Assembly: GCA_902578525.1 (NCBI GenBank)
Contig: CACHDJ010000005.1
Coordinates: 1 to 51,375 of the forward strand
From: an uncultured Pelagibacteraceae bacterium
GTDB taxonomy: Bacteria > Pseudomonadota > Alphaproteobacteria > Pelagibacterales > Pelagibacteraceae
Reading direction: 5' to 3'
Length of the DNA stretch: 51,375 nt
Notes under the pieces: model-generated
The model's input: the letters and a program-made list of their open reading frames with translations, nothing else
Told to the model about the DNA's origin: nothing
The model's database searches: none
In this document: piece by piece, positions 5,115 through 48,821 of the stretch
Position numbering within the stretch: the first letter of the stretch is position 1
Layout: each line of letters begins with the position of its first letter
Position numbers and translations under genes: made by a program

Positions 5115-5235
5115 TATTTTTTTTTCTTTTAAAACTTCCTTTGCCTTTTTTAGGTTTAACTACTTTTGGCTTATATTTTTTTGAAAATAGATCTTTTGCA
5201 ATTATATTTTTACGTTTAATTAATTTGATAACCAT
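5104..5235 (-). CDS. arfA: ArfA-like alternative ribosome-rescue factor
   Basis: A 43-residue basic protein read from ATG at 5235 to TAG at 5104. Residues 10-38 contain NIIAKDLF, then YKPKVVKPKKGKGSFKRK. The latter matches the core of E. coli ArfA, FRQRVEKNKKGKGSYMRK, in spacing and in the invariant KKGKGS(Y/F)xRK. ArfA enters the empty mRNA channel of ribosomes stalled on non-stop mRNA and recruits RF2. The ORF lacks the long hydrophobic tail of full-length E. coli ArfA, so it resembles the shortened active form. The start lies inside the 3' end of the upstream regulator gene (20-base overlap), suggesting coupling. The end overlaps the sugar kinase. The assignment rests on motif match only. 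Confidence 0.7.
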   Translation of the reverse strand: MVIKLIKRKNIIAKDLFSKKYKPKVVKPKKGKGSFKRKKNIKF

Positions 5236-5779
5236 CTTTAAGACTAACTATAAAATTACTATCATTAAAAGTTTTTAGTATTTTTTTTCGCAACCTATAA
5301 ATATGAGTTTCTACAGTATGAGTTTCGAGTTTAGAATGATAACCCCAAACTTCAGATTGTAATTGATCAATTCCAACAGGATTATTTGATTTGTGTAAGT
5401 AAACAATTGTGTTTGTCTCTTTTTCAGTTAATTTTAATACTTCATCATTTGCTATTAATTCCCTTGAGTTTAAATATATTTTATATTTTCCAATACTTAT
5501 CTCTGATTTTTCATTAAATTGAACTTTAAGAAATTCAACATTTAATTTTTCAATCAATTTTGAAATTTTAATAGGAACTTGGCTTAAAATAAATTGGTTA
5601 TTTACTCCATCCAATTTTTTTTGAGTAATTATTAAATAATTCTCCAAACTATTTAGTTTTTCATTTAAATTTTTTTCGTTAGCTGCTTCAAAAATTTTAA
5701 AATTAATATTTTCTTCTAATTCTTTAATAATTTCATATAAAGATTTAAATTTGAATATTATTAAATTTTGATAATCCAT
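5216..5779 (-). CDS. OmpR-type winged-helix regulator with degenerate receiver
   Basis: A 187-residue protein. The C-terminal part (about residues 95-187) is an OmpR/PhoB winged helix: a LTEKETNTIVYL start, VWGYHSKLETHTVETHIYRLRKKI as the recognition-helix region (positions 5279-5350), and a GYQIN end. The N-terminal part looks like a shortened receiver domain. The strand that should end in the phosphoacceptor Asp reads YLIIT, and no acidic pocket is evident. It may therefore act without phosphorylation. No sensor kinase is adjacent. Target genes are unknown. It is divergent from the broken YkuD gene with 13 bases between start codons and overlaps arfA downstream. Confidence 0.75.
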   Translation of the reverse strand: MDYQNLIIFKFKSLYEIIKELEENINFKIFEAANEKNLNEKLNSLENYLIITQKKLDGVNNQFILSQVPIKISKLIEKLNVEFLKVQFNEKSEISIGKYKIYLNSRELIANDEVLKLTEKETNTIVYLHKSNNPVGIDQLQSEVWGYHSKLETHTVETHIYRLRKKILKTFNDSNFIVSLKDGYQIN

Positions 5780-5792
5780 ATATAATGAAGAT

Positions 5793-6286
5793 ATGTTAAT
5801 TTTTTTGAAAAATAAACATACTCTTCAAATAGATGATTTTTTTTTCAATGTTGTATAGGAAAGAATGGCTTAACAGCAAAAAAAGTTGAGGGAGATAAAA
5901 AAACGCCAATCGGAACTTTTAAAATTCAGCACTTATATTATAGAAAAGACAGAATCGGCCACCCACAAACAAATTTAAAGTGCATACAAATTAAAAAAAG
6001 AATGAGCTGGTGTGATGATGTAAACCAGCCAAAAAAATATAATAAATTAATTAATATTGATAGTGACATTCACCATGAAAAACTTTTTAGAAAAGATAGC
6101 AAATATGATCTTTTAATTCCGATAAAATATAATTTTTTTAAAAGAATTCCTGGTAAAGGAAGTTGTATTTTTATTCATTTAACAAAAAACTATAAGCCTA
6201 CCGCAGGATGTATTGCATTAAAGAAAAAAGATTTTTTAATTATGCTTAAAATAATTAATAAAAATACAAAAATAAAAATTTACTAG
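5793..6286 (+). pseudogene. YkuD-family (L,D-transpeptidase-like) protein, frameshifted
   Basis: Starting at ATG 5793 the frame reads 21 codons to a TAG at 5856. One extra T in the nine-T run at 5837-5845 would join it to the downstream frame, giving about 164 residues. The joined product has the COG3786-type pattern CCIGKNGLTAKKVEGDKKTPIGTF, here split across the break region, then SWCDD, PGKGSCIFIH and the catalytic PTAGCIAL with its Cys. Such proteins act on peptidoglycan cross-links or related periplasmic substrates. The downstream frame from 6002 alone lacks the N-terminal half of the domain. The break could be a genuine mutation, an assembly error in a homopolymer, or a site corrected by slippage. 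All catalytic residues are intact, which suggests it is recent or not real. Confidence 0.75.
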
Positions 6287-13161: not shown

Positions 13162-14010
13162 CTAATAGTTAGATTTTATAATTTCGATTATCTTATTTAA
13201 TTGTTCAATATCTTTATATAAAAAAGTTATAGATCCTTTATTTCTTTTATTATTCTTAATAAATACATTAAGCCCAATTTTTTCCGAAATTACTCTTTCT
13301 AGATCTTTAATATTTGAATCTTTTGGAATAGATGACTTTTGTTTTTTTCCCTTAAATAGTTTAACAAAATTCTCTGATTGTCTAACGGAAAGTTTTTTTT
13401 CAACAATTTTATTAGCTACAAAACTTACATTTTCTAGACCTACTAGAATTTTAGCATGGCCAGCGGTTAATTTTTTTTTCTCTATAAGTTTTATAACATC
13501 TTCTGGTAAGGTTAGAAGTCTGAGACAATTTGATATATAAGCTCTACTTTTACCAATAAATTTTGAAACTTTTCCTTGATCATATTTAAACTCATCAATT
13601 AATCTTTTATAACCTTGAGCTTCTTCTAGTGGATTTAAATCATGCCTTTGAACATTTTCTACAATTGCAAATTCAAGTGATTTAAGATCATCTGCCTCCG
13701 TTATGATAACTGGCACTTTATGCAGACCTGCTTTTTGAGCAGCAAGCCATCTTCTTTCTCCAGCAATAATTTCAAATTTTGATTTATCATCATCAAGCTT
13801 TCTCACAATAATTGGCTGGAGGATCCCCCTTTCAATAATTGAATTCGTCAAATCTTTTAAGTTATCTTCATCAAAATCTTTTCTAGGTTGATATTTGTTT
13901 GGGGTAATTTCTGAAATTAAAAGTTGATTTTTATTTTCTTCAATTTTTGTTTCTCCAATTAGTGAAGATAAGCCTCGTCCTAAGCCTTTTCTTATTTTAT
14001 TTGAATCCAT
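13162..14010 (-). CDS. parB: Chromosome partitioning protein ParB
   Basis: CTP-dependent clamp that loads at parS and spreads to form the segregation complex. The 282 residues begin with the LGRGLSSLIGE box that contacts ParA. They continue with NKYQPRKDF, the CTP-binding GERRWLAAQKAG and ENVQRHDLNPLEEAQGY motifs, the helix-turn-helix around KVSKFIGKSRAYISNCLRLL, and a short C-terminal dimerisation region. It overlaps parA by one base. A parS lies 1.4 kb upstream in rsmG. Confidence 0.97.
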   Translation of the reverse strand: MDSNKIRKGLGRGLSSLIGETKIEENKNQLLISEITPNKYQPRKDFDEDNLKDLTNSIIERGILQPIIVRKLDDDKSKFEIIAGERRWLAAQKAGLHKVPVIITEADDLKSLEFAIVENVQRHDLNPLEEAQGYKRLIDEFKYDQGKVSKFIGKSRAYISNCLRLLTLPEDVIKLIEKKKLTAGHAKILVGLENVSFVANKIVEKKLSVRQSENFVKLFKGKKQKSSIPKDSNIKDLERVISEKIGLNVFIKNNKRNKGSITFLYKDIEQLNKIIEIIKSNY

Positions 14011-14804
14011 TAAGCTGCACTTCCTAAAGTCGATTTTTGATTAATAAATTCATCAGTAAAACTGAAGTATGACTTACTCCCTGGACAAGATTTATCATAA
14101 ATTAAAACTGGCATGCCATGTGATGGCGCCTCAGACAATCTAACATTTCTAGGAATAACTGTTGTATAAACTTTTTCTTTAAAATAGTCTCTCGCTTCTT
14201 TTTCAACTTGTGATGAAAGTTTATTTCTCTTATCATACATGGTCAAAAGTATTCCTCTTATTTCTAATTCTGGGTTTAAGTTTACTTTAATTCTTTCAAT
14301 TGTTTTCATGAGCTGTGTTAGCCCTTCTAAAGCAAAAAATTCAGTCTGAAGAGGTACCAATAGTGAATTAGAGCTTACTAGGGCCATAACAGTCAATAAA
14401 CTGAGCGAAGGGGGGCAATCAATTAAGGCAAAATCATATAATCCTCTAGAATCATTTAAATAAGCGGTTAATTTACGCTTCAATATAAAGGCTCTTTGAG
14501 CATCTTCAGCTGTTTCTACCTCTAATCCAGACAAATCAACATTTGAAGTTATAATGTCCAAGTTTTTAAATTTAGATTTTTTAATTACCTCAGAAATTTC
14601 TTTAGTTCCATTTAAAACACCATAAATTGTATTACTTGAATTTTCCATATTAGATAATCCTAATCCTGTTGTTGCATTTCCTTGGGGATCTAGGTCTATT
14701 ACAAGAACTTTTTTATCCTGTTGTGATAAACCAGCTGCTAAATTTATAGCTGTTGTTGTTTTTCCAACCCCACCCTTTTGATTTATGACAGAAATAATTT
14801 GCAT
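14010..14804 (-). CDS. parA: Chromosome partitioning ATPase ParA
   Basis: Walker-type ATPase that moves ParB-bound origins apart. The 264 residues start with the deviant Walker A KGGVGKTTTAINLA, then VIDLDPQGNATTGLG (Walker A'), and FALIDCPPSLSLLTV (Walker B). The ending KSYFSFTDEFI is typical of chromosomal ParA (Soj). It lies one base after rsmG and overlaps parB by one base, the standard rsmG-parA-parB order near alphaproteobacterial origins. Confidence 0.97.
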   Translation of the reverse strand: MQIISVINQKGGVGKTTTAINLAAGLSQQDKKVLVIDLDPQGNATTGLGLSNMENSSNTIYGVLNGTKEISEVIKKSKFKNLDIITSNVDLSGLEVETAEDAQRAFILKRKLTAYLNDSRGLYDFALIDCPPSLSLLTVMALVSSNSLLVPLQTEFFALEGLTQLMKTIERIKVNLNPELEIRGILLTMYDKRNKLSSQVEKEARDYFKEKVYTTVIPRNVRLSEAPSHGMPVLIYDKSCPGSKSYFSFTDEFINQKSTLGSAA

Positions 14805-15449
14805 TTAATTTTTTTTATCTATTTTTTTTATATTTATTAAAAATGAATCTTTATTAGTTAAACTTTTTTTTTCTGTATAATCCAATTTCCATTTTTTTTT
14901 TGAATTTTCAAAAATTATTTTTCCATTCTTCCCCATAAAGAAAATTAAATTTTTATATTTAGAAAAATTTTCATATACTAAATCTAAAACAACTGGCATT
15001 GGTTTGAATGCTCTTGACATAATCGTTCCTGTTTCTAAATTTTTTATTTCAAAAATATTTTTTTGAAAAACTTTTGTTTTTAAATTCAATTTTTTTGACA
15101 CTTCTTTCAAAAAATGGCTTTTATGGTAGCTTTTTTCATAAAGGTGTACCTTCATGTTATTTTTCATGTTTTTTAGTATAATTGCCACTATAATTCCTGG
15201 CATGCCCCCTCCAGATCCTAAATCTGTGGTTGTATTGCTATTTAAATCAACAAAATCAATAATTTGTGCGGAATCTATTATATGACGGTCAATTATGGTC
15301 TTTTTTGATGCTGTTTTTTGGCTAATTATGTTAATTTTTTTATTTTTTTCAAGAATCATAGATATGTAGTTTTCGAAATCTAAAAATGTTTCACGTGAAA
15401 CATTTAAGTCATTGAGTGTTGAGTAATTATTTAAAATTTCATGATCCAT
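14805..15449 (-). CDS. rsmG: 16S rRNA (guanine527-N7) methyltransferase RsmG
   Basis: SAM-dependent enzyme that methylates G527 of 16S rRNA. The 214 residues contain the SAM-binding DLGSGGGMPGI and the early NVSRETF motif. The codons of NVSRETF contain a perfect parS site. The later ETGTIMSRAFKPMP is also typical. Its start overlaps the mnmG stop by one base and parA follows at once, so translation across mnmG-rsmG-parA-parB is probably coupled. Confidence 0.96.
   Translation of the reverse strand: MDHEILNNYSTLNDLNVSRETFLDFENYISMILEKNKKINIISQKTASKKTIIDRHIIDSAQIIDFVDLNSNTTTDLGSGGGMPGIIVAIILKNMKNNMKVHLYEKSYHKSHFLKEVSKKLNLKTKVFQKNIFEIKNLETGTIMSRAFKPMPVVLDLVYENFSKYKNLIFFMGKNGKIIFENSKKKWKLDYTEKKSLTNKDSFLINIKKIDKKN
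15387..15402. other. parS: parS centromere site
   Basis: TGTTTCACGTGAAACA is a perfect 16-bp palindrome identical to the bacterial parS consensus. It lies inside rsmG, encoding part of its NVSRETF motif. ParB, encoded 1.4 kb away, should load here. It is about 9 kb from the proposed replication origin, the usual close spacing. I saw no second copy in the window. Confidence 0.96.
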
Positions 15450-17320
15450 TAAGCTATATGCTTAATAGACTTTCTTTTGACATGTGACAACAAAATATAT
15501 ACAGCAGCAGGAGTAATTCCATCGATTCTCAAGGCTTGACCCATTGTTTTGGGTCTTATTTCTTTAAATTTAGCTTTAACTTCGTTAGAAAGGCCTGAAA
15601 ATTGATCATAATCAATATTGTCAGGGATAGATAAATTCTCATCTCTTTTAAAGGCAAGAATATCAGCTTTTTGCTTTTTCAAATAACCTCTGTAATGAGA
15701 GTTAATCTCTATCTGTTCATCAATCTCACCACCATGATTAAGAATTTCAGGCCAAATATCTCTAATTTTACTCATATTAACGTCTTTTTGAGTTAATATT
15801 TCTTCAGCTGTTCTAAAAACACCATCTTTAGCAATTTTAATTCCAAATTTAGAAGCTTTAGAGGGAGAAATATTCAAATTAGACATCTGCAATGATATTT
15901 TGCTCAATTTTTGAAATTTATCCTCAAATATCTCTTTTCTATTATTTGCAATTAATCCAATATTAATTCCTTTGTGAGTAAGTCTTAAGTCAGCATTATC
16001 TGATCTGAGACTTAATCTATATTCAGCTCTAGATGTAAACATTCTATAGGGCTCAGCAACACCCTTAGTTACTAAATCATCAATCATTACTCCAATATAA
16101 GCATCTGATCTATCAAGGATAAAAGGCTCCATTTTTTTAAGTGACAGAGCAGCATTAATCCCAGCTATAAGACCTTGGGCTGCAGCCTCTTCGTATCCTG
16201 TGGTTCCATTAATTTGACCTGCAAGGTATAGATTCTTTATTTTCTTAGTCTCCAATGTTAAAAAGAGTTCTCTAGGGTCTACGTAATCATATTCTATAGC
16301 ATATCCTGGCCTAATCACTTTAACATTTTCTAAACCATTGATATTATTGAGTATTTCATGTTGTACAACCTCAGGTAGAGATGTTGATATGCCATTTGGG
16401 TAGATTGTATTATCATTCAGGCCCTCTGGCTCTAAAAATATTTGATGTTTAGTCTTATCTGCAAATTTTACTATCTTATCTTCTATTGAAGGACAATATC
16501 TTGGACCAACACCTTGAATGCTACCAGAGTACATTGCACTTTTAGATAAATTCTTTTCTATAATCTTATGAACCTTTTCATTGGTATAGGTCATAGAGCA
16601 CGATACTTGTTTGTTTAGATTTTTTTTTGTTAAAAAAGAAAAAAAATAAGGATCATCATCTGCAAATTGTTTTTCCAATTTTTCAAAATTAATAGTTCTA
16701 GAATCTAACCTTGGTGGTGTCCCAGTTTTTAGTCTACCTATTTTAAAGTTATATTTCTCTAACTGTTCACTCAAACCAGTGCTTGGCTTTTCATTAAATC
16801 TACCAGCAGGAGTTCTTTCATCACCAATATGTATCAAGCCGTTTAAAAATGTGCCAGTTGTAAGTATTAACTTGTTACAATTTACTTTATTACCTTTTAA
16901 TGTTAAAAATCCACTTATTTCATTATTATTAAAAATAAACTTAACTACAGGATCAGAAAAAATGCTTAAATTACAGTAGTTTACAAGTTTTTCCTGCATA
17001 AATTTTCGATATAATGATCTATCAGTTTGAGTACGTGGTCCTCTTACCGCTGGACCTCTACTTCTATTTAACAGTCTAAACTGTATCCCAGACTTATCGG
17101 CAACTTCACCCATGACCCCATCTAAAGCATCAATTTCTCTTACTAAATGACCTTTACCTAAACCGCCAATAGCAGGATTACATGACATTTCTCCTATGGT
17201 ATTTTTATTGTGAGTGAATAGGGCAGTGTTAATTCCAAGTCGAGCTGATGCAGCTGCTGCCTCACATCCTGCATGACCCCCACCAATTACTACCACATCA
17301 TATGATAAATCTTTTTTCAT
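15449..17320 (-). CDS. mnmG: tRNA uridine-5-carboxymethylaminomethyl modification enzyme MnmG (GidA)
   Basis: FAD enzyme that works with MnmE to modify wobble U34 of several tRNAs. The 623 residues begin with the FAD-binding [17 protein letters not shown]. They then show [20 protein letters not shown], which includes a conserved Cys, and [17 protein letters not shown]. The middle [17 protein letters not shown] motif and the C-terminal helical domain that contacts MnmE are also present. It overlaps rsmG by one base and lies 116 bases after mnmE. That spacer is AT-rich without a clear terminator. Confidence 0.98.
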
Positions 17321-17436
17321 GATCTAAATTTATATTCGATTAGAATATTTACAAGATTTCAGTTTTTTTTCTTAAATAAGCTATATTTACCAACGAAAAT
17401 CGAAAAAAAAGGCCTAAAAATACAGCAAAATTGCTT

Positions 17437-18768
17437 TTATTTCCCAATGCAAAAATCGTTGAAAATACTACCTAATATCTCCTCTACATCAACTTTTCCG
17501 ACAATCATACCCAAATGTCTAGTTGCTAACCTTAAATCTTCAGCTGCTTTATCAAAATCTTTTTTACTATTTTTATCGAAAAAATTTTTCAGATGATCTA
17601 CGCACTGAACCAAATGTTGTCTATGTCTTTCTCGAGTTATTAAAATATCTTCCTCAGTTATGAATTTATCTTTTAAATAGTTTTTAATTTTTTGGATCAA
17701 CTCATCAATGTTTGAGTTGTCTTTTAATGAAATTAAAACGTGATTAAGTTTAAGAATTTCTGGGTCTAACTTATCTTTTATTAGGTCAGATTTATTAACA
17801 ACAAGAATTGCATCATTTTTTAACAAATCATTCAAAAAACCGCTTAAATCAATACTTTTAGCATCAACTACTACTAATTTTAAGTCAGCATTTTCAGCTT
17901 TTTTTAGAGATAATCTTATTCCCTTTTTTTCGATTTCATCTTTTGACTCTCTTATACCGGCTGTGTCAGAAATAATAACAGGATACCCATCTATATTTAG
18001 ATGGGTTTCTACAACATCTCTCGTTGTGCCAGCTATCTCAGAAACTATAGCAACCTCTCTGTTAGATAAATTATTTAATAAACTTGATTTACCTGCATTA
18101 GTTGGTCCTACGATTGCAATTTTAAAACCTTCACGGATTATCTCTCCAACTTTTTGATCATTCAATATTTTATTAATCTCATTTAATACATCTGCAGACT
18201 CTTGTCTTATTTTTTTTAAATTATCTTCTGGTAAATCTTCATCAGGAAAATCTATTTTAGCCTCAACAAATGATAAAATTTTCAATAATTTTTCTCTTAA
18301 CTCATTAAATTTCTCTGAAGTTTTTCCTCTCATGATTTTTACAGCTTGTAATCTTTGAATTTCAGTTTCAGCAGATATCAGGTCTGCTATACTCTCAGCT
18401 TTAAGTAAATTTATTTTCCCGTTTTGAAAAGCAATCTTTGTAAATTCTCCTGGCTCGGCTAATCTACAATTTTTGATTTTTGAAATCTCGTTTTGAACTG
18501 CCAAAACTACAGCTTTCCCTCCATGCACATGGATTTCGGCCATATCCTCGCCTGTGTAACTCTGAGGGCCTGGAAACCATATTATAATCCCTTCATCAAT
18601 AAGCTCAGAAGTGTTGATATTGTTTATTTTTCGAAGAGTTGCCATTCTAGGCTTAGGAATTTCTTTGCCAGTAAGAGATTTGATAATATTTGATGCTTCA
18701 GGTCCTGAAATTCTAACTATAGCTACACCAGAAACTCCTGGTCCACTTGATAAAGCATAAATTGTCAT
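17437..18768 (-). CDS. mnmE: tRNA modification GTPase MnmE (TrmE)
   Basis: Partner of MnmG in U34 tRNA modification. The 443 residues show the N-terminal tetrahydrofolate-binding domain (ALSSGPGVSGVAIVRISG, EIHVHGGKAV). The inserted G domain follows with P-loop GPTNAGKSSLLN (about residue 219), DTAGIRESKDEIEKKGI and NKSD. The C-terminal FCIGK carries the catalytic Cys. In many relatives rho lies directly beside mnmE; here a sulfotransferase gene separates them. Confidence 0.98.
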   Translation of the reverse strand: MTIYALSSGPGVSGVAIVRISGPEASNIIKSLTGKEIPKPRMATLRKINNINTSELIDEGIIIWFPGPQSYTGEDMAEIHVHGGKAVVLAVQNEISKIKNCRLAEPGEFTKIAFQNGKINLLKAESIADLISAETEIQRLQAVKIMRGKTSEKFNELREKLLKILSFVEAKIDFPDEDLPEDNLKKIRQESADVLNEINKILNDQKVGEIIREGFKIAIVGPTNAGKSSLLNNLSNREVAIVSEIAGTTRDVVETHLNIDGYPVIISDTAGIRESKDEIEKKGIRLSLKKAENADLKLVVVDAKSIDLSGFLNDLLKNDAILVVNKSDLIKDKLDPEILKLNHVLISLKDNSNIDELIQKIKNYLKDKFITEEDILITRERHRQHLVQCVDHLKNFFDKNSKKDFDKAAEDLRLATRHLGMIVGKVDVEEILGSIFNDFCIGK

Positions 18769-18802
18769 AACTTTATCATATTAAAATAATAAAAAATTAA
18801 TA

Positions 18803-20380
18803 TTAAATTATATTTAATTTATCATACATATTTTTCAAAAAATTTTCGTAGGAGTTATGAGAATTTATTGAATCTTTATAAATTGGGTTATTGGCTTGAG
18901 AAACACTTACAGTTTTAACGGGGGTTTTACTAAATTTAGTGAAATTATAACATTTTTCATTTAAATCCAAATTACAAAAATTCAATAATTTATCTATTTC
19001 ATTTTTACTATTGTTCACCAACTTTTCATAATTTAAATCATAAATTGAATTCGGAATTTTATTTTTCCAAAAATTAATGAGTTGGTGATAATGATTATAA
19101 TAATCGGAAATTTCTACTTGATCAAATGCCCAATTCATCATTGATGATGCAAAATCATTTTTAAAAAGCGAAATACAATTATCTTTTGGATTCCTATTAC
19201 AATTTATAATTTTTGAATTAGGAAAAAATAGTTTTATAAACCCAATCCATTTAAAATTTTGAGGTGTTTTATCAACAATAATATTTTCTTTAAGATTATA
19301 TATTTTAAAAAATTCTAAATATTCAGAAAATAGCAAATCTTGTCTATCATTTTGATAATCAATAATTTTTTGATTATTTAACTTATTGTCTATAATAAAA
19401 TTTTTTTTTACTGCCTCTTCTAAATATAATAATTCACCAGCTCCAAAAACATCTGGATGAGCTGAAAGTATTTGTTCTACCAAGGTAGTGCCAGAACGAG
19501 GCATTCCACAAACAAATATAATTTTTTTTGTATTCGGCTTTAAATTGATATTATCAAAACTAATATTTTTAAAAGATTTACTTATATTATTAAAAAGTCT
19601 TATTTCATCACTTAAATTTGAACCATTTTTCTTTTTTTTTGAGTCGTTTGCTAATTGTAAATAATCGAACGAATCTTTATAATTTTTCAAATCTTCGAAT
19701 GATTTTCCTATAGAGAAAGATAATATAATTTTATCATCAATATCCAAAATTGGATCTTTTTGGATTTTAATCATTTCATCTATATGGCTCATGGAAATAG
19801 AATTATCTGTTGAATATTTTGTAATTTCGCTCAATATTTTATGGGCTCGAGCACATTTTGAATCAATTTTGAATATTTCATTTAAAATATTTCTTAAATT
19901 TTTAAGATCGTTAATACTTTGATATATACCAGCTAAAGAAAGCATAATATTTAATGCCTGGACGTTTTTTTGACCGGCTATTAATAATGCTTTTTTTAAT
20001 AAACTAATTGCATCATTATAATTATTTATTTCAACTTTAAGATTAGCATAATTATTTAATCCATGAATATAATTAGGATCAATATCCAATATCTTTTTAT
20101 AAATTGAGTCTGCTTCAAAATAATTTAATAGTTTTTTGTGGGAATTGGCTAAATTATTCATTGCTGCAATATTTTTTTCTTCATTTTCAATTGCTAGTTC
20201 AAAGAAATTAATTGCTGAAATATGATCATCCAAGAATTGATGAGTCATACCATTTAAATTCAACAAGTAAGAATTATTTGGAAATTTCTTTAATAATTTA
20301 TTTAATAATTCTTTGGCTTTTAAAAATTTTCTATTCTGAATATGACTGTGTATTGATTTAATTTTTACTTCTAAATCCAT
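18803..20380 (-). CDS. TPR-repeat sulfotransferase
   Basis: A 525-residue two-part protein. Residues 1 to about 230 are tetratricopeptide-like helical repeats, for example AAMNNLANSHKKL followed by HGLNNYANLKVEINNYNDAI. From about residue 280 there is a PAPS-dependent sulfotransferase domain with the 5'-phosphosulfate loop GMPRSGTTLVEQIL (about 291-304) and the 3'-phosphate motif NRNPKDNCISLF. There is no signal peptide. The acceptor is unknown; related bacterial enzymes sulfate carbohydrates or peptides. It interrupts the usual mnmE-rho neighbourhood and may be a lineage-specific insertion. Confidence 0.85.
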   Translation of the reverse strand: MDLEVKIKSIHSHIQNRKFLKAKELLNKLLKKFPNNSYLLNLNGMTHQFLDDHISAINFFELAIENEEKNIAAMNNLANSHKKLLNYFEADSIYKKILDIDPNYIHGLNNYANLKVEINNYNDAISLLKKALLIAGQKNVQALNIMLSLAGIYQSINDLKNLRNILNEIFKIDSKCARAHKILSEITKYSTDNSISMSHIDEMIKIQKDPILDIDDKIILSFSIGKSFEDLKNYKDSFDYLQLANDSKKKKNGSNLSDEIRLFNNISKSFKNISFDNINLKPNTKKIIFVCGMPRSGTTLVEQILSAHPDVFGAGELLYLEEAVKKNFIIDNKLNNQKIIDYQNDRQDLLFSEYLEFFKIYNLKENIIVDKTPQNFKWIGFIKLFFPNSKIINCNRNPKDNCISLFKNDFASSMMNWAFDQVEISDYYNHYHQLINFWKNKIPNSIYDLNYEKLVNNSKNEIDKLLNFCNLDLNEKCYNFTKFSKTPVKTVSVSQANNPIYKDSINSHNSYENFLKNMYDKLNII

Positions 20381-20404
20381 ACAATAATATTTTTAAATTT
20401 TATT

Positions 20405-21673
20405 TTAAGCAGGTTTATTCATTGAATTAAAGAATTCTGCATTATTTTTTGTATCCTTTAATTTAGAACTTATGAATTCTATTGCATCCATTGTTCCCAT
20501 AGGGGCTATAATTCTCCTTAATACATTCATTTTTTGAAGATCATTCTTATCAAACAATAGTTCCTCTCTTCTAGTGCCTGATTTAGTTATATCTATCGCT
20601 GGATAGATTCTTTTATCTGCAATTTTTCTGTCTAGAACTGTTTCGCTGTTACCTGTTCCTTTAAATTCTTCAAAAATTACTTCATCCATTCTACTACCAG
20701 TATCAATTAATGCAGTTGAGATAATTGTCAAAGATCCACCTTCTTCAATATTTCTAGCTGCACCAAAAAATCTTTTTGGTCTTTGAAGAGCGTTAGCATC
20801 AACACCACCTGTTAAAACTTTACCAGAACTTGGAATAACCGCATTATAAGCTCTTCCTAGTCTCGTTATTGAATCTAAAAGTATAACTACATCTTTTTTA
20901 TGCTCTGTTAATCTTTTTGCTTTTTCTATAACCATTTCGGCAACAGCAACATGTCTTTGAGCTGGTTCATCAAAGGTTGAGCTTATAACCTCTCCTTTAA
21001 CAGTCCTCTGCATGTCTGTAACTTCTTCAGGTCTTTCATCAATTAGAAGTACTATTAAATAACATTCGGGATAATTTTTTGCTATTGAGTTTGCAATACT
21101 TTGCAAAATCATTGTTTTTCCAGCTTTTGGTGGTGAAATAATAATTGATCTTTGTCCTTTTCCAATTGGACTAACTAAATCTATTAGTCTTGGGGTTAAG
21201 TCTGGTTTTTTCTCAGTTTTAAGCATTTCGACTTCCATTACCAACTGCTTGTCAGGATAAAGAGGTGTTAAGTTATCAAATGCTATTTTATGTCTTGATT
21301 TTTCAGGTTCTTCAAAATTAATTTTACTTACTTGAAGTAGAGCAAAATATCTCTCACCTTCTTTCGGTGCTCTAACTGGACCCTCTACAGTGTCGCCTGT
21401 CCTTAATCCAAATTTTCTAATCTGACTTGGACTAACATAGATATCATCTGGTCCAGGTAAATAGTTAGATTCCATTGCTCTAAGAAAACCAAAGCCATCT
21501 TGTAAAAGTTGCAAAACTCCTGCGCCAGTAATTTCCTCTTTTTCAGCAACTTTTTTTAGTATTGCAAAAAGAATTTCTTGTTTTCTTAATGTACTAGCAT
21601 TTTCGATACCAAGCTCTTCTGCCTGAGTGATAAGCTGTTCAGATGATTTGAGTTTTAGTTCTTGAATGTTCAT
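20405..21673 (-). CDS. rho: Transcription termination factor Rho
   Basis: Hexameric RNA helicase that ends transcription at Rho-dependent sites. The 422 residues include the N-terminal helical Rho-N domain, then the RNA-binding cold-shock-like fold with [20 protein letters not shown]. The ATPase core has Walker A PPKAGKTM (about residue 181), the Walker B region [16 protein letters not shown], and the Q/R-loop area. Few intrinsic terminators are visible in the window, so Rho may carry much of the termination load. Confidence 0.98.
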
Positions 21674-21731
21674 GAATAAAAATTATTAAGGACTTAATAA
21701 TAGGCTTAATATATATGCAATTTATAATTAT

Positions 21732-22172
21732 TCAACCCCAGATAGGCTTAAATATTACAACAAAAATGATTAAAATAAGCAATAATGTGGGTATTTCATT
21801 TATAAATCGATAAAATTTATGTGAATATTTGTTTGAGTCTAATTTGAATTGCCCAAGAATTTTACCTAGATAAAAATGATAGAGAGTTAATAAACCTACA
21901 AAAAGCAATTTTAAAATCATCCATGTTTGCCCCAATTTATCAAATCCAATTTCATGTATTAATATTAGACCAAATACCCATGATAAAATCATCGCTGGAG
22001 TCATAATGTAGTAGAAAAGTTTTTTTTCCATCACTTTAAATACTTCTGAAACAATTGGTTGAGCATTATTTTGAGAATGATAAACAAAAATTCTTGGAAG
22101 ATACAATAGCCCAGCCATCCAAGAAATAACGGCTATTAAATGTAATGATTTAAAAAGTAAATAAGTGTTCAT
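21732..22172 (-). CDS. hemJ: Protoporphyrinogen IX oxidase HemJ
   Basis: Inner-membrane enzyme that oxidises protoporphyrinogen IX in heme synthesis. The 146 residues form about four hydrophobic helices. The start FKSLHLIAVISWMAGLLYLPR carries the conserved His and the SWMAGLLYLPR motif of UPF0093/HemJ. Placement directly after hemH and hemE supports the role. It is 3 bases from hemH. Confidence 0.92.
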   Translation of the reverse strand: MNTYLLFKSLHLIAVISWMAGLLYLPRIFVYHSQNNAQPIVSEVFKVMEKKLFYYIMTPAMILSWVFGLILIHEIGFDKLGQTWMILKLLFVGLLTLYHFYLGKILGQFKLDSNKYSHKFYRFINEIPTLLLILIIFVVIFKPIWG

Positions 22173-22175
22173 TGA

Positions 22176-23174
22176 TTATATGCTTTTTTGAATTAAAGAT
22201 TCTAATAGCCTAATATGATCTTCACTATCGTTCAAGCATGGCACCATGTCAAAATTTTCACCACCAGAATCTAAAAAGCTTTCTTTGCCTTGAATTAGTA
22301 TTTCTTCCAAAGTTTCAACACAATCTGATGAAAAACCAGGACATATAGCTAAAACATTCTTTTTTCCTTCAGCTGGCAAACTTTCTAAAGTCTTATCAGT
22401 ATAAGGTTGAAGCCATTTTTGCGGGCCAAACCTAGACTGAAATGTTGTCTTTATTTCAATTGAATTGAATTTTTCTGATAAAAGTCTTGTCGTTTTATGA
22501 CAATAGCAATGATATGGATCTCCTTTATCAAAATATTTTTGAGGAATTCCATGATAGGATGCTAATATTAAGTCTGGTTTCCAATTAATTTCTTTTATCT
22601 TTTTATTTAAAGAATTTGTTAATGCTTCTATGTATAAAGGATCTGATTCATAATGTGGTATTATTTTTAACGATGGTTGCCACCTCATTTGCATTAATGT
22701 TCTGTATACCTCGTCACAAACAGTGGCGGTAGTAGCAGCTGCATACTGAGGATACAATGGGAGTATAACTAAGTTTTCACATCCTATTTTATGAAGGGTT
22801 TTTATTTTGCTTCTTATACTTGGGTTTCCATACCTCATAGCATAATCTACTACTAAATTTTCTTTTGATATTGAGTTTGATAATTTTTCTGCCTGTTTTT
22901 TTGTATAATATAAAAGTGGTGAAATATTTTCATCTTTCATCCATATTTCTTTGTAAGCTTTTGCAGTTTTTGATGGTCTTAAATTTAATATAAAAACATT
23001 CAGAATAATTTGCCATATTAAAGGATTAATTTCTATTACCCTTCTATCAGATAAAAATTCTTTTAAATATTTTCTTATATCAAACCAATTTGTAGAATCG
23101 GGGGTTCCTAAGTTTATTATCAAAACTCCAGTTTTTCCAAAATTAATAAGAGGATGTTCTGATTTTCTTTTCAT
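22176..23174 (-). CDS. hemH: Ferrochelatase HemH
   Basis: Inserts Fe2+ into protoporphyrin IX, the last step of heme b synthesis. The 332 residues contain GVLIINLGTPDS near the start, and SYHGIPQKYFDKGDPYHCYC, which includes the catalytic His. FQSRFGPQKWLQPYTD and a late CPGFSSDCVETLEE with the conserved Glu are also present. Its start overlaps the hemE stop by one base. Confidence 0.97.
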   Translation of the reverse strand: MKRKSEHPLINFGKTGVLIINLGTPDSTNWFDIRKYLKEFLSDRRVIEINPLIWQIILNVFILNLRPSKTAKAYKEIWMKDENISPLLYYTKKQAEKLSNSISKENLVVDYAMRYGNPSIRSKIKTLHKIGCENLVILPLYPQYAAATTATVCDEVYRTLMQMRWQPSLKIIPHYESDPLYIEALTNSLNKKIKEINWKPDLILASYHGIPQKYFDKGDPYHCYCHKTTRLLSEKFNSIEIKTTFQSRFGPQKWLQPYTDKTLESLPAEGKKNVLAICPGFSSDCVETLEEILIQGKESFLDSGGENFDMVPCLNDSEDHIRLLESLIQKSI

Positions 23175-24175
23175 TAATAATCTTTTACTGTTTTTACTAA
23201 ATAATCCATCATATTTGGATCTGTTTCTGGTAAAACTCCGTGTCCTAAATTAAAAATATAAGGATGATCTTTAAATATATCTAAGTATTTTTTTGCTTCT
23301 TTTTTTATAGTTTCTTTGTCAGACAATAAAACCTTGGGATCCATTCCTCCCTGAACCGGTATTTTAATTTTTTTTCTAATTGTGAATGGATCAACTTCAT
23401 AATCGATACAAATTGCATCGGGCTTTACAAAATCACAATATTTTTTATAATCCTTAATATTTCTCGGAAAACATATAACAGGTGTATTTAGAGATTGTAC
23501 AAATTTTACCAAGTTTAGTGTTGGGTTATATATATAATTTGGTATGTCTTTATTTTCTAATAATCCTGCCCAACTATCAAATATTTGAATTGCGTTTGCA
23601 CCATTATCTATTTGATTTTTAATATGAATTTTTAAAAATTTTTCTATAACAATTAAAATTTTATTTATCAGATTTTCATCTCTAAAAAAATTTTTTTTTA
23701 GTTGTTTTTTGGGAGATTGTTGATTTATCATATAAACCAATATAGTCCAAGGCGCACCAACAAACCCGATAGTGCTTTTATCTTTTAAAATATCGTTATT
23801 ACTTACATTTTTTATTGCTTCATAAATTTCTTGAACTCTTTTTGTAAAATCAGTTTCTTTCACTCCAGAAATTTCTTCTAAATTAAGTTTGCCTAATATA
23901 GGACCAAAATTTTTTTTAAATTCTACTTTTTGCTTTAAACCATATGGTAACATTAATATATCTGAAAAAATAATGGCAGCGTCAAAGTCAAATCTTCTCA
24001 ATGGCTGAAGAGTAATTTCAGTAGATAAAGTCGGGTTTAAACACAGTTTTATAAAATCAGTATTTTTAGATCTAATTTCTCTGAATTCAGGCAAATATCT
24101 GCCTGCTTGTCTCATTATCCATATAGGATTTATACTTGTATCCTTATTAACTATTACTTTGTTTAATGGTGTCAT
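23174..24175 (-). CDS. hemE: Uroporphyrinogen decarboxylase HemE
   Basis: Decarboxylates uroporphyrinogen III to coproporphyrinogen III. The 333 residues carry the signature IWMRQAGRYLPEFREIR near the start, FDAAIIFSDILMLPYGLK with the catalytic Asp, and GFVGAPWTILVYM. The late FNLGHGVLPETDP motif is also present. It is the first gene of the hemE-hemH-hemJ-rho run and faces away from ppsR. In Caulobacter, hemE borders the replication origin. Confidence 0.97.
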   Translation of the reverse strand: MTPLNKVIVNKDTSINPIWIMRQAGRYLPEFREIRSKNTDFIKLCLNPTLSTEITLQPLRRFDFDAAIIFSDILMLPYGLKQKVEFKKNFGPILGKLNLEEISGVKETDFTKRVQEIYEAIKNVSNNDILKDKSTIGFVGAPWTILVYMINQQSPKKQLKKNFFRDENLINKILIVIEKFLKIHIKNQIDNGANAIQIFDSWAGLLENKDIPNYIYNPTLNLVKFVQSLNTPVICFPRNIKDYKKYCDFVKPDAICIDYEVDPFTIRKKIKIPVQGGMDPKVLLSDKETIKKEAKKYLDIFKDHPYIFNLGHGVLPETDPNMMDYLVKTVKDY

Positions 24176-24242
24176 ATTAAAATATTACATATTAATTATT
24201 GTATTAGTATTATGTATTGTGAATTACGATGATTAATTTTTA

Positions 24243-24277
24243 TTAACATAATATTAACAGTTTAATAACATCTTAAC
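24243..24277 (+). promoter_or_regulatory. Twin CtrA-type binding sites in the origin
   Basis: TTAACATAATATTAAC (24243-24258) and TTAATAACATCTTAAC (24262-24277) both match TTAA-N7-TTAAC exactly. They have the same orientation, and their starts lie 19 bases apart, about two helical turns. CtrA binds this consensus at the Caulobacter origin to block initiation. Whether this organism makes CtrA cannot be seen here, and high A+T raises chance matches. Confidence 0.5.
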
Positions 24278-24318
24278 TTTAATTATATTGTTTAAATTGA
24301 AGCTTTTTAGAATTTTAT

Positions 24319-24338
24319 CAAGTTTAATGTAAAACTTG
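24319..24338. repeat. Inverted repeat within the origin region
   Basis: CAAGTTT and AAACTTG form a perfect 7-bp dyad around a 6-base spacer. The right arm extends to CTTGTAA, which is repeated in inverted form as TTACAAG at 24375-24381. It has no T tract, so it does not look like a terminator. It may be a protein-binding dyad of the origin or of the ppsR promoter. Confidence 0.45.
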
Positions 24339-24448
24339 TAAGATATGTTTATTATTGTTAATAAAACTCTTATTTTACAAGGATAATTAAACAATATCTA
24401 AATTTTATAAATTTATTAAAATAATACAATTTTATTAACTTAAAGTTC

Positions 24449-25276
24449 ATGAATAATACATATGAAATTTATCTTATTTCTGACTCAACAGGTGAAACTC
24501 TAGATAGAATCTTTCTAGCTTTAAAAGCACAATTTAAGAATATTGATTATAAAATTCATTCTTATTCTTTTACTAGAACAGAAAATCAAATTATGAAAAT
24601 ATTAGAAGATGCAGAAATTAAAAAAAATTCAGTAATACTTTATACAATTGTAGATAATAATTTAGCAAAATATTTAGCTAACGCTAGTGATGATAAAAAA
24701 ATTCCATGTTTCGGTGTATTAGGAAATTTAATTTTAAATTTTTCAAAAATTCTTAATCAAAAAGCATCTCATGAACCAAGCGGACAACACGTTCTTAATG
24801 ATGAATATTATGAAAGAATTGAAGCAATACAATTTACAATGAATCATGATGACGGAAATTTAATTAATGATTTTGATAAATCAGATATTGTTTTAATTGG
24901 TGTTAGTAGAACCAGTAAAACTCCTACATCAATTTATTTAGCAAACAGAGGTTTTAAAACTTCTAACATACCTCTTGTTAACGAAAATTCTTTACCAAAA
25001 AAATTAAGAGACAATCCTAGATTAACATGTGTCGTTGGTTTAAATACTGAGCCTGAAAGATTAGTAGATTTAAGAAAAAATAGAATGAATTCTTTAAAAG
25101 AAACTGAAAACAAAAATTATACAAGTATAGAAAATATTAAAAAAGAAGTTGCTGATGCTAAAAAAACTTTTCAAAAATATAAATGGCCTTCTATTGATGT
25201 TACTAGAAAATCAGTTGAAGAAGCTGCTGCTTCTATTATAAAAATACACGAAATATATTCAAATAATGCTAAATAA
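24449..25276 (+). CDS. ppsR: Pyruvate, phosphate dikinase regulatory protein (DUF299)
   Basis: Bifunctional kinase/pyrophosphorylase that turns PPDK or PEP synthase off and on by ADP-dependent phosphorylation. The 275 residues begin with IYLISDSTGETLDRI. They contain the ABC-type P-loop-like GVSRTSKTPTSIYLANRG (about residues 151-168) and the late VTRKSVEEAAASI motif. It is the counterpart of Rickettsia RP001, the gene flanking the origin opposite hemE. The last 11 bases overlap maf. Confidence 0.93.
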   Translation: MNNTYEIYLISDSTGETLDRIFLALKAQFKNIDYKIHSYSFTRTENQIMKILEDAEIKKNSVILYTIVDNNLAKYLANASDDKKIPCFGVLGNLILNFSKILNQKASHEPSGQHVLNDEYYERIEAIQFTMNHDDGNLINDFDKSDIVLIGVSRTSKTPTSIYLANRGFKTSNIPLVNENSLPKKLRDNPRLTCVVGLNTEPERLVDLRKNRMNSLKETENKNYTSIENIKKEVADAKKTFQKYKWPSIDVTRKSVEEAAASIIKIHEIYSNNAK

Positions 25277-25853
25277 AATTATACTTGCGTCAAAAAGCAA
25301 GGTCAGGAAGCAAATTTTAGATGAAAATAATATACCTAATGAAGTTGAACCATCTAATGTGGATGAGGATGTTGTAAAAGAAAGTTTAATTAAAGAAAAA
25401 GCGAGCCCAGACATGATTTCTAAAAACTTAGCCGAGCTAAAAGCCAATAAGGTAAGTTTAAAACAAACAAATCAGATGGTTTTAGGAGCGGATAGCGTAA
25501 TTGATTTGGAGGGTGAATTAATATCAAAACCAGAAAGTAGAAAAGAAGCTTTTGACATTCTAAAAAAGTTAAATGGTAAAAAACATTATTTAGTAAGCTC
25601 TGTTTGTATTTCTAAAAATGGTTCTATGATTTGGAATTATACTGGAAAAGCAACATTAAAAATGAAAAATTTTTCAGATAATAATCTTAAACTTTACCTG
25701 TCTAAAATTACAGATGAAGCTTTATATGCGTATAATGTTTATCAAATAGAGGGCGAGGGTAGGAAATTATTTTCCCAAATTGATGGAGATAAAAATACAA
25801 TAATGGGTTTGCCTATTAAACAAATTAAAGAATATTTAGAAACTATAAAATGA
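25266..25853 (+). CDS. maf: Maf-family nucleotide pyrophosphatase
   Basis: House-cleaning enzyme that hydrolyses dTTP/UTP or modified nucleotides. The 195 residues start with IILASKSKVRKQIL (the S-x-S-x-x-R substrate loop). They continue with VLGADSVIDLEG, containing the catalytic-base Asp, SKPESRKEAFDIL, and a late AYNVYQIEGEGRKLF. The start lies 11 bases inside ppsR and the stop overlaps aroE by four bases. The subfamily (dTTP- or m7GTP-specific) is not clear. Confidence 0.92.
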   Translation: MLNKIILASKSKVRKQILDENNIPNEVEPSNVDEDVVKESLIKEKASPDMISKNLAELKANKVSLKQTNQMVLGADSVIDLEGELISKPESRKEAFDILKKLNGKKHYLVSSVCISKNGSMIWNYTGKATLKMKNFSDNNLKLYLSKITDEALYAYNVYQIEGEGRKLFSQIDGDKNTIMGLPIKQIKEYLETIK

Positions 25854-26641
25854 AAAAATATTTAGTAGTTGGAAATCCTATTGAACATTCATTGTCTCCC
25901 AAGCTTCATAACTATTGGTTTAAAAATAATGGCATTGATGCGATTTACGAAAAGAAAAAAATAAATGAGGATGAGCTTGAATCTTTAATCCGGGATATTA
26001 AAGAAAAAAAAATACATGGTATTAATGTTACTGTACCTTTCAAAAAAGCTATAATTCCTTATGTTGATGAATTAAGTTTCGAATCAGAGAAAACTCAATC
26101 AGTAAATACAGTTTATTTAGATAACAATAAAACAATTGGTCATAATACAGATATATATGGATTTGAATTAGGTATTAAAAATTTGAAAATAGATTTATCA
26201 AAAAAAAAAATTCTTATACTTGGAGCTGGGGGAGTCGTGCCATCGATAATTTTTGCTTTAAATAAAATGAAAGTGTCTGAAATTTTAATTAGTAATAGGA
26301 CTCAAGATAAAGCAGAAAATTTAAAAGATTTATTTAAAGATTTGAAAATAGTAAATTGGGGTGTTATTCCAGAATTTGATATAATCATAAATGCGACTAG
26401 TCTAGGCTTAAAAAAGGATGATGAAATAAATTTAGACTTTTCAAGAGTAGGTTCAAATAAATTTTTTTACGATGTAATTTACAATCCTGGTGAAACAAAG
26501 TTTCTAAAAATTGGTAAAAAGTTAGGAAATAAAACAGAAAATGGTAAGTTAATGTTTATTTCTCAGGCTCTTGAAGCATTTAATATTTGGCACGGAATTA
26601 AACCTCAAATTAATAATGAGGTAATTGAACTTTTAGACTAA
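25850..26641 (+). CDS. aroE: Shikimate dehydrogenase
   Basis: NADPH-dependent reduction of 3-dehydroshikimate in aromatic amino-acid synthesis. The 263 residues have VVGNPIEHSLSPKLHNYWF (the substrate-binding S-x-S), GINVTVPFKKAI with the catalytic Lys, and TDIYGFELG with the catalytic Asp. The dinucleotide-binding GAGGVVPS and the late SQALEAFNIWHG are also present. It overlaps maf by four bases and coaE by one. Confidence 0.97.
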   Translation: MKKYLVVGNPIEHSLSPKLHNYWFKNNGIDAIYEKKKINEDELESLIRDIKEKKIHGINVTVPFKKAIIPYVDELSFESEKTQSVNTVYLDNNKTIGHNTDIYGFELGIKNLKIDLSKKKILILGAGGVVPSIIFALNKMKVSEILISNRTQDKAENLKDLFKDLKIVNWGVIPEFDIIINATSLGLKKDDEINLDFSRVGSNKFFYDVIYNPGETKFLKIGKKLGNKTENGKLMFISQALEAFNIWHGIKPQINNEVIELLD

Positions 26642-27210
26642 TGATTAAAATTGGCATTTTAGGAAGCATTGGATCTGGGAAAAGTTATGTAGCAAAGAAG
26701 TTTGGCTATCCGGTATTCAATGCAGATCTTGAGGTTAGTAAATTATATAAAAAAGATAAAAAAGTTTTTAAGAAATTAAAAAAAGTTTTATCAGAACATG
26801 TTTATTCGTTCCCAATAAAAAAAAATGAAATTACTAAAGCAATATTAGCAAATAAATCTAATCTTCAAAAAATAGTTAAGATTGTGCATTTAGAAGTAAG
26901 AAAAAGAATGGGTACGTTTTTAAAAAAAAACAAAAATAAAAAGATTGTAATTTTAGATATACCTCTATTGTTAGAAAATAAAATTAATAATAAAAATGAT
27001 ATTTTAGTTTTTGTTGAGGCTAGAAAAACAGATATTTTAAAAAGATTAAAAAAAAGGAGTAATTTTAATCAGCAATTACTTAATAGATTCAGAGATATTC
27101 AGTTATCCCCTAATTATAAAAAGAAAAAATCTCAATTTATAATAAACAACCAATTTACTGATAAATCTGTTAAGAAAAGTATTAAGAATATTTTAAAAAA
27201 AATTTTATAA
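26641..27210 (+). CDS. coaE: Dephospho-CoA kinase
   Basis: Last step of coenzyme A synthesis. The 189 residues open with the P-loop GILGSIGSGKSYVAKKFG, then FNADLEVSKLY with the conserved Asp, and VILDIPLLLE. They end in the RLKKRSNF / RFRDIQLS lid region with FIINNQ. The stop abuts the dnaQ ATG. Part of the conserved ppsR-maf-aroE-coaE-dnaQ series. Confidence 0.95.
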   Translation: MIKIGILGSIGSGKSYVAKKFGYPVFNADLEVSKLYKKDKKVFKKLKKVLSEHVYSFPIKKNEITKAILANKSNLQKIVKIVHLEVRKRMGTFLKKNKNKKIVILDIPLLLENKINNKNDILVFVEARKTDILKRLKKRSNFNQQLLNRFRDIQLSPNYKKKKSQFIINNQFTDKSVKKSIKNILKKIL

Positions 27211-27876
27211 ATGAAAGAAGTAATATTAGATACAGAGACAACTGGTATATCAGTAAAAGACGGACATAGGATAGTCGAGATAGGATGTATTGAGTTAGAT
27301 AATTTAATTCCTACACAAAATAAATTTCATTGTTATCTTAATCCAGAAAGAAAAGTTTCCGAAAAAGCATTTGAGGTTCATGGATATTCTGATGATTTTT
27401 TGTCTAAACAAAATAAGTTTAAAGAAGTTGTTGATGAGTTTTTAAATTTTATTGATGGTAAAAGATTAATTATACACAATGCTGATTTTGATTTATCGCA
27501 TATAAATAATGAACTTAAAATACTTGGGAAAGCTAAAATTGATAATGAAATAGTAGATACTCTTTTATTGGCAAAAGAAAAATTTCCAGGTTCCTCTATA
27601 AGCCTGGATGCTTTGTGCAAAAGATACAGAATTGATAATTCTAAAAGAGTTCAACATACAGCTCTTATTGACTGTGAATTATTGGCAAAAGTTTATATTA
27701 ATTTAACTGGACAAAGAGAGCCAACTTTAGATTTTAAAAATCAGGATGACAAATACCAAGATTTAGAAAGAAAGAATATATTATATTTTAAAAAAATAGT
27801 TAAACCTACTGCTGAAGATTTAAAAAAACATGAAGAATTTTTAAAAACAAGTTTAAAAAAAAATTTTTTTAATTAA
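27211..27876 (+). CDS. dnaQ: DNA polymerase III epsilon subunit (3'-5' exonuclease)
   Basis: Proofreading exonuclease of the replicase. The 221 residues contain Exo I LDTETTGIS, Exo II IIHNADFDLSHINNEL, and Exo III QHTALIDCELLAKVY, with the catalytic acidic residues and His. The C-terminal part, which binds the alpha subunit, is Lys-rich. It converges with secB and overlaps its end by 8 bases. Confidence 0.96.
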   Translation: MKEVILDTETTGISVKDGHRIVEIGCIELDNLIPTQNKFHCYLNPERKVSEKAFEVHGYSDDFLSKQNKFKEVVDEFLNFIDGKRLIIHNADFDLSHINNELKILGKAKIDNEIVDTLLLAKEKFPGSSISLDALCKRYRIDNSKRVQHTALIDCELLAKVYINLTGQREPTLDFKNQDDKYQDLERKNILYFKKIVKPTAEDLKKHEEFLKTSLKKNFFN

Positions 27877-34585: not shown

Positions 34586-34586
34586 T

Positions 34587-34859
34587 ATGCTGAATACTTT
34601 AGAAAGTTTATTTAATCTTGCAAGAGAACGAAAAAAATCTCCTGTAGAGGGTTCTTACACAAATAAATTGCTTAGCGATAAGTCTCTAAGCAAAGATAAA
34701 GTAGTGGAGGAAATAAATGAACTTATTGAAGCAGTTGAAAATAATTCAAATAAAATTCATGAGGCAGCAGATGTATTTTATCATTTAATAATGTATCTTG
34801 AGGCGAACAATATAAAAATAGAGGAAGTTATGACAGAACTTAATAAAAGAAAAAAATGA
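34587..34859 (+). CDS. hisE: Phosphoribosyl-ATP pyrophosphatase
   Basis: Second step of histidine synthesis. The 90-residue all-helical MazG-like enzyme contains VVEEINELIEAVEN and EAADVFYHLIMYLEANN, which hold the Mg2+-binding acidic residues. The standalone form is normal for alphaproteobacteria. It starts one base after hisF and overlaps the HIT gene by four bases. Confidence 0.95.
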   Translation: MLNTLESLFNLARERKKSPVEGSYTNKLLSDKSLSKDKVVEEINELIEAVENNSNKIHEAADVFYHLIMYLEANNIKIEEVMTELNKRKK

Positions 34860-48457: not shown

Positions 48458-48717
48458 TAGTCGTCCTCTCTTTCTGAAAAGCCGAACTCTTCATCAATTT
48501 TTTCTTGCCTATTCGCAAACCAGAAAATTAGGATTACGAAAATTCCAAGAGAACCTTGACAAGTGAACCAATAAGTTAACGGATAACCAAATGGTCCCGT
48601 AGTACTGTTCATTTCAGCTCCAAATAAGAAGATGCCAATTGAGAATACAAACCAGATTGCTAATGTCATGAATAGCAAACCTCTGGTTTTTTCCCAGTGT
48701 TGTTCTTGTTTTGACAT
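48457..48717 (-). CDS. DUF4212 symporter small subunit
   Basis: An 86-residue protein with two membrane helices (about residues 13-33 and 46-66) and polar ends. It contains HWEKTRGLLFMTLAIWFVFS and FGYPLTYWFTCQGSLGIFVI, typical of DUF4212 proteins that accompany VC_2705-type symporters. Translation is coupled to the symporter by one shared base. A good Shine-Dalgarno (GAGAGAGG, 48723-48730) lies 5 bases before the ATG. Upstream lies the 10-bp palindrome AGTTATAACT. Confidence 0.92.
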   Translation of the reverse strand: MSKQEQHWEKTRGLLFMTLAIWFVFSIGIFLFGAEMNSTTGPFGYPLTYWFTCQGSLGIFVILIFWFANRQEKIDEEFGFSEREDD

Positions 48718-48722
48718 TTATA

Positions 48723-48730
48723 CCTCTCTC
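48723..48730 (-). promoter_or_regulatory. Shine-Dalgarno of the DUF4212-symporter operon
   Basis: GAGAGAGG on the minus strand, 5 bases before the ATG at 48717. Purine-rich ribosome sites this clear are uncommon in the window and fix the start. Confidence 0.7.
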
Positions 48731-48821
48731 TTTTTAGTTATAACTGGCCAAAACCATAACCATTATGAAATAGATTTAAAGTGTTAAAATTGTTAAAAAT
48801 AGTAGCGTTTTTTTGCTATAA

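Follow-up and report, generated by a model that had tools for sequence, protein, structure and literature searches.

The intergenic gap between hemE and ppsR (24176-24448; 273 bp, GC 0.143) is very probably the chromosomal origin of replication (oriC) of this Pelagibacteraceae (SAR11) genome. This assignment, already put forward as a probable one in a sequence-only reading, is supported by the gene context, by the persistence of the gap where ppsR has been lost, by the enrichment and positional conservation of DnaA-box-like sites, by a DnaA-trio-like block and by the genome-scale strand asymmetry of a complete relative (G012). We stress that the location, albeit useful, is the expected one, and that what is added to the known hemE-type origin is a base-level prediction of the unwinding site. 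Throughout, the window denotes the whole stretch of DNA analysed (51,375 nucleotides), which is contig 5 of a 34-contig draft genome (1.008 Mb, 81.6% complete).

The gap had been described as the largest and among the most AT-rich of the window. The statement on composition holds, as only 0.04% of the window's 273-bp stretches (those overlapping the gap included) equal or exceed its AT-richness, and its GC content contrasts with 0.254 over the surrounding 3.8 kb (a local reference and not the genome average), in keeping with the AT-richness by which hemE-type origins are recognised. The statement on length fails if only ORFs of at least 100 aa are counted, two gaps then appearing longer (5780-6282, 503 bp; 48458-48821, 364 bp), and stands once shorter plausible genes within them are considered (94 aa, 6002-6286, and 86 aa, 48457-48717, respectively), the runner-up, as delimited by ORFs of at least 100 aa, being 34586-34855 (270 bp). 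The residues of the 94-aa ORF resemble what we take to be an L,D-transpeptidase (YkuD) fragment, and the 86-aa ORF, situated directly upstream of a sodium:solute symporter gene, presumably encodes the small subunit of this neighbouring transporter.

On one side the gap is bordered by hemE (uroporphyrinogen decarboxylase, TIGR01464; 23174-24175, minus strand) and on the other by ppsR (the DUF299/COG1806/RP001 homologue, NF003742; 24449-25276, plus strand), just as read earlier from the letters, and it thereby lies beside hemE and COG1806, either or both of which mark origins of the hemE type. Downstream of ppsR follow maf, aroE, coaE and dnaQ (25266-27876, plus strand, family matches), so that the order ppsR-maf-aroE-coaE-dnaQ is indeed kept, while rho, hemJ and hemH (20405-23174, minus strand, family matches) share the hemE side with mnmE, mnmG, rsmG, parA and parB. 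The outward orientation of the gene runs is borne out as well: every ORF of at least 100 aa within 13162-24175 is on the minus strand and all five within 24449-27876 are on the plus strand, with both strands in use beyond 27876. The partitioning elements, expected within 11 kb, were located at 8.8 to 11.0 kb from the gap and comprise parB (13162-14010) and parA (14010-14804; the ParA-type gene product is the AAA_31 protein), both on the minus strand, together with parS, a perfect 16-bp palindrome within rsmG (15387-15402, plus strand). The motif search of the window returned this single parS match (0 mismatches), as compared with an average of 0.29 in shuffled sequences, for which up to 3 mismatches were allowed. 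The cumulative GC skew of the window reaches its minimum at 23501-24500, which we do not regard as independent evidence because the skew there tracks gene direction.

The origins of Caulobacter and Rickettsia are bounded by hemE and COG1806, experimentally in the former and by prediction in the latter (PMC1914354, in the part available), and the gap thus occupies the position at which the sequence-only reading had placed it by analogy with these two bacteria. With the Cori of Caulobacter crescentus it shares the hemE and DUF299/COG1806 flanks, the AT-richness and the presence of several DnaA boxes, which here are predicted ones, and it departs from it in length (273 bp vs >400 bp, going by the accessible sections of PMC1914354) and in its weaker, TTATTAACA-type boxes. 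The predicted origins of Rickettsia prowazekii and Wolbachia likewise have hemE as a boundary gene (PMC1914354, same portion).

Within the genus (37 genomes, including the one under study), hemE (minus), the gap and ppsR (plus) were adjacent in all 30 genomes in which both genes are complete, with gap lengths of 261-305 bp; among the other seven, ppsR is truncated at the contig end and hemE has no match in one (G019, left out), and six have neither gene. Similarly, among the best 80 of at least 590 ppsR matches in relatives with named genomes (these 80 all Pelagibacteraceae, Pelagibacterales or Candidatus Pelagibacter), every one of the 80 loci has hemE immediately upstream of ppsR and in opposite orientation. 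The 30 congeneric and 80 named gaps (110 in total) were reduced to 108 distinct Pelagibacteraceae gaps by dropping two identical ones; in L138 and L185, both among the named gaps and retained, the hemE match is partial and the hemE-side edge approximate.

The sister family offers a view of the locus after loss of one flank. We found ppsR in none of its 24 genomes and hemE in 21 of them, and the 14 hemE loci examined (of the 21) all keep the succession hemE-gap-maf (gap of 271-281 bp), in which hemE is accompanied by rho and hemH, and maf by aroE, coaE and dnaQ. Since the succession is kept in 14 of 14 loci devoid of ppsR, the gap outlives its right-hand gene. The GC content of these gaps (0.22-0.31) is below that of the locus (0.31-0.35). 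In the same loci (L111-L124) ppsR is missing exactly at the origin-proximal position, the gap and the remaining neighbours being kept. That one flank is replaceable is seen also in Wolbachia, where COG1253 takes the place that maf takes in the SAR11 sister family; unlike in Wolbachia, for which a rearrangement is inferred (PMC1914354, available sections), the sister family has the gap and the remaining genes of the cluster in place.

The loose DnaA box TTATNNACA occurs in every one of the 108 Pelagibacteraceae gaps and amounts to 374 matches, 9.7-fold the shuffle mean of 38.6 (maximum 56), and TTATNCACA amounts to 93 matches vs 3.8 (exact match in 78 of the 108), bearing in mind that shuffle counts ignore the shared ancestry of the gaps. 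The contrast between near-invariant and variable columns inside the same gaps is independent of the shuffles. The motif ACANNTTAT is high too (161 vs 37.6 in shuffles), and this excess we read as probably reflecting boxes set 2 bp apart. TTWTNNACA is present in 108 of 108 gaps and in 8 of 14 from the sister family, where the enrichment of TTATNNACA is weaker (10 vs 2.9, in 7 of 14 gaps), TTATCCACA is found in 4 of 14 gaps (4 vs 0.1) and TTATNCACA in 6 of 14, the control motif TTATNNAGA being itself high (7 vs 1.4).

On our reading, the conserved blocks of the Pelagibacteraceae alignment begin on the hemE side with a block of triplets, which is followed by box 1, then by an array and a central reverse box, and finally by a ppsR-side box, the boxes being predicted from motif search and alignment. 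The predicted DnaA box 1 (24218-24226, minus strand) reads TAATTCACA, with two mismatches to TTATCCACA; its commonest form in the 108 gaps is TTATTCACA (TGTGAATAA on the opposite strand), present in 71. The putative array is made of three plus-strand sites, TTATTAACA (24240-24248), ATATTAACA (24251-24259) and TTAATAACA (24262-24270), each 11 bp on from the previous one, and two further box-like sites lie within conserved blocks, TTATTAACA at 24356-24364 (minus strand) and TTATTAACT at 24432-24440 (plus strand, beside the ppsR start). No exact TTATCCACA or TTATNCACA occurs in the window's own gap. A pattern of the triple 11-bp array (up to 3 mismatches) has a single match in the whole draft, located exactly in the gap; it matches in 3 of 15 genomes, the two relatives having one match each, also inside their gaps, and the reversed pattern, used as control, matches in 0 of 15.

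Box density was rejected as an origin detector for single genomes, as the gap is not singled out in the window, where it holds two strict TTATNNACA matches and 58 of 5111 sliding positions reach two (the gap's own included). In the sampled part of G012 (544 kb) the gap is joint first on TTATNNACA with one other place (3 each), and on TTWTNNACA it has 4, with 5 at another place and 4 at two more. The ends of two predicted ORFs reach into a second box-rich place of this genome (approximately 1324391-1324651).

Between hemE and box 1, the 108-gap alignment delineates a 3-bp-periodic, DnaA-trio-like block (TTA TTG TAT TAG TAT TAT; 24196-24213, plus strand), separated from box 1 by 4 bp and oriented relative to it, we presume, as in Bacillus subtilis. 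The T at 24202, 24205, 24208 and 24211 is kept in 107, 108, 108 and 106 of the 108 gaps (all four in 106), the A that follows in 105, 52, 98 and 105, and the third place is variable in three of the four triplets. Out of 255 starts, the five with the strongest periodicity contrast fall inside the block and the next one near 24350, where a second, weaker 3-bp-periodic stretch (24347-24364) overlaps the reverse box TTATTAACA. The hemE-side end would thus have the anatomy of a DnaA-trio/BUS unwinding module, as known from B. subtilis and many bacteria, in which a DnaA box has, no more than 16 bp away, a run of three or more N-A-N trios (3'-GAT-5'), the spacer usually measuring 10-13 bp (PMC8287927, consulted portion). 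The window has such a series (TAT TAG TAT TAT) within 16 bp of box 1, a box that is two mismatches off the consensus, and its TAG equals 3'-GAT-5'. The layout differs from the described one in the 4-bp spacer and in the triplets themselves, which in Pelagibacteraceae are mostly TAT, TAG, TAA and TTG (comparison with the available part of PMC8287927). As TTG is a frequent second triplet, 42 of the 108 gaps satisfy the strict rule of three N-A-N in a row. In 3 of the 14 sister-family loci (L113, L117, L120) at least three TAG follow each other, as read off the alignment. The name 'Pelagibacter' does not appear in the main text of PMC8287927. We offer this architecture as a base-level prediction of the unwinding site, whose duplex-unwinding element would probably start at the AT-rich end beside hemE (24176-24195).

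In many bacteria oriC lies beside dnaA, and an origin at or near that gene, about 63-70 kb to the hemE side, with the gap as merely a conserved neighbour, has to be weighed, although we consider it quite unlikely. In its favour, dnaA (not found in the 81.6% complete draft itself) keeps a nearly fixed distance from the gap in the same-family genomes that have both on one contig (5 of 5), where 63-70 kb separate it from ppsR in the direction of hemE (63 kb in G012). Against it, the gap upstream of dnaA (66-350 bp, AT 0.78-0.86) is devoid of TTWTNNACA in 10 of 12 relatives (8 from the window's family and 4 from the sister family), with two matches in G009 and one in G038; the 66 bp of G035 are owed to a short predicted ORF. 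Moreover, the origin of Caulobacter, which was identified by experiment, has hemE and COG1806 as its flanks (PMC1914354, in the sections available).

Strand asymmetry bears on both sites. In G012, the one complete relative (544 kb or 41% sampled, densest from 1.139 to 1.343 Mb, around the gap), raw skew tracks gene direction; once this is corrected for, third-position GC skew (GC3) places the best origin at 1.26 Mb, the gap being at 1.262 Mb, and 4 of 1000 permutations reach this maximum. Taken as fixed hypotheses, the gap attains t = 3.51 (reached by 0 of 1000 permutations) and dnaA t = 2.77 (6 of 1000), and the fraction of genes coded on the leading strand amounts to 0.631 if the origin is put at the gap (10 of 1000 flips) and to 0.587 if it is put at dnaA (61 of 1000). 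The scanned maximum of leading-strand coding, at 1.30 Mb, is unexceptional (reached by 137 of 1000 flips). The gene-corrected asymmetry therefore favours the gap over dnaA, coarsely, with a resolution that we judge to be no better than about 50 kb. The local test (974 ORFs pooled from nine genomes) does not separate the two sites: GC3 gives t = -1.33 with the origin at the gap, AT3 to the right of the gap gives t = -3.25 with a sign opposite to the genome-wide one in G012, and between dnaA and hemE the plus-strand genes have a higher whole-gene GC skew than the minus-strand ones (t = 2.58), which is the direction expected with an origin at dnaA and leans towards it. The skew comparison suggested in the sequence-only reading hence sides with the gap at genome scale and is undecided locally. 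A terminus based on dif was dropped, as no clear single site emerged in three genomes; the dif-like pattern gave, at up to 3 mismatches and relative to the reversed control, 27 vs 19 matches in G000, 43 vs 19 in G012 and 24 vs 21 in G037.

It is highly improbable that the gap is a mere divergent promoter/leader region of hemE and ppsR, AT-rich as promoters are. Lying between two divergent genes it must hold their start signals, no Rfam family reaches the cut-off in it, and some of the conserved blocks near ppsR could be promoter parts; among the conserved stretches that are not DnaA-box-like (about 24293-24308, 24373-24380 and 24416-24429 in the Pelagibacteraceae alignment), the last could serve ppsR in this way. 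Against this reading, the gap keeps its size in the sister family, where ppsR is gone, and many conserved columns, spread along the gap, are DnaA-box-like or 3-bp-periodic. The gap upstream of dnaA, with its AT of 0.78-0.86, is mostly without boxes, and over the 108 gaps the control motifs fall well short of the box motif, TTTANNACA not being enriched (27 vs 44.4 in shuffles, 0.61-fold), TTATNNAGA hardly (17 vs 11.9, 1.43-fold) and ACATNNTTA somewhat (72 vs 39.0, 1.85-fold).

Two exact TTAA-N7-TTAA matches in the gap (24243-24257 and 24262-24276) both overlap the array of three boxes with its 11-bp spacing, and because this spacing of boxes can create TTAA-N7-TTAA we rejected them as CtrA sites and see in them no evidence of CtrA control. 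An origin regulated through these two matches by CtrA, as in Caulobacter, is scarcely credible, given that over the 108 gaps the N7 spacing (1.38-fold relative to shuffles) stays under the control spacings N6 (1.97) and N5 (2.25), though over N8 (1.07) and N9 (0.62), that the four Trans_reg_C proteins found in G012 do not reach the cut-off of the one CtrA model considered and that Pelagibacter is reported to have no ctrA orthologue (PMC2877005, as far as the available part goes). Three of those four proteins are response regulators, one of them a PhoB, and the fourth matches no NCBIfam model at E 1e-20; where the CtrA model (of Rhodobacterales type) is among the matches listed, its best score is 133.5 vs a cut-off of 350. 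TTAA-N7-TTAA was found in 0 of 14 sister-family gaps, and the IHF consensus WATCAN5WTR has no match in the window's gap, the one searched for it. In lacking supported CtrA sites (no excess over the spacing controls), an IHF consensus match and, in G012, a recognised CtrA, the SAR11 locus is unlike the Caulobacter Cori; some predicted origins of the hemE type have no CtrA sites either (PMC1914354, accessible sections).

From this anatomy a sequence of events can be proposed. DnaA would bind box 1, the weak boxes that form a helically phased array (24240-24270) and the additional ones at 24356-24364 and 24432-24440, and from box 1 its filament would grow along one strand of the T-A-N triplets (24196-24213; the plus strand in the orientation given). 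The filament may then melt the AT-rich end next to hemE, where the helicase would be loaded and from which forks would leave in both directions; the newly copied parS, 9 kb away, would subsequently be segregated by ParA/ParB. Tentatively, and as a reading that is plausible rather than probable, we suggest that the origin of SAR11 bacteria is a minimal one (about 270 bp) that works without CtrA, with one hemE-facing melting site of the trio type and, instead of strong TTATCCACA boxes, weak TTATTAACA ones in a helically phased array, at which initiation would depend mainly on the cooperative loading of DnaA, dnaA itself being 63-70 kb off.

SAR11 bacteria rank among the ocean's most abundant cells, and their read depth follows a V-shaped gradient between one origin and one terminus, from which in situ replication was estimated (PMC9589681); the portion of that source available does not name the origin site. 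Judged by title and abstract opening, the literature searched (with partial coverage) yielded no sequence-level account of a SAR11 origin. GRiD, a tool for estimates of this type, puts dnaA-bearing fragments at the origin (PMC7852909, in the part available); the distance between dnaA and the gap (63-70 kb) is about 5% of a 1.3 Mb genome. An origin defined at base level would provide a better read-depth anchor, along with a candidate site of DnaA unwinding in an alphaproteobacterium that has a reduced genome and no recognised CtrA.

Two other proteins of the window deserve mention. The region between mnmE and rho (18803-20380) encodes a protein of 525 aa, with TPR-type matches in front and a short match to NoeE, which we take to be a sulfotransferase, behind. 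Further away, 5216-5779 encodes a 187-aa protein that has an OmpR-type winged helix (Trans_reg_C) at its C-terminus and matches no NCBIfam model at E 1e-20, and a similar 187-aa Trans_reg_C protein is encoded in G012, about 18 kb from the origin gap of that genome.
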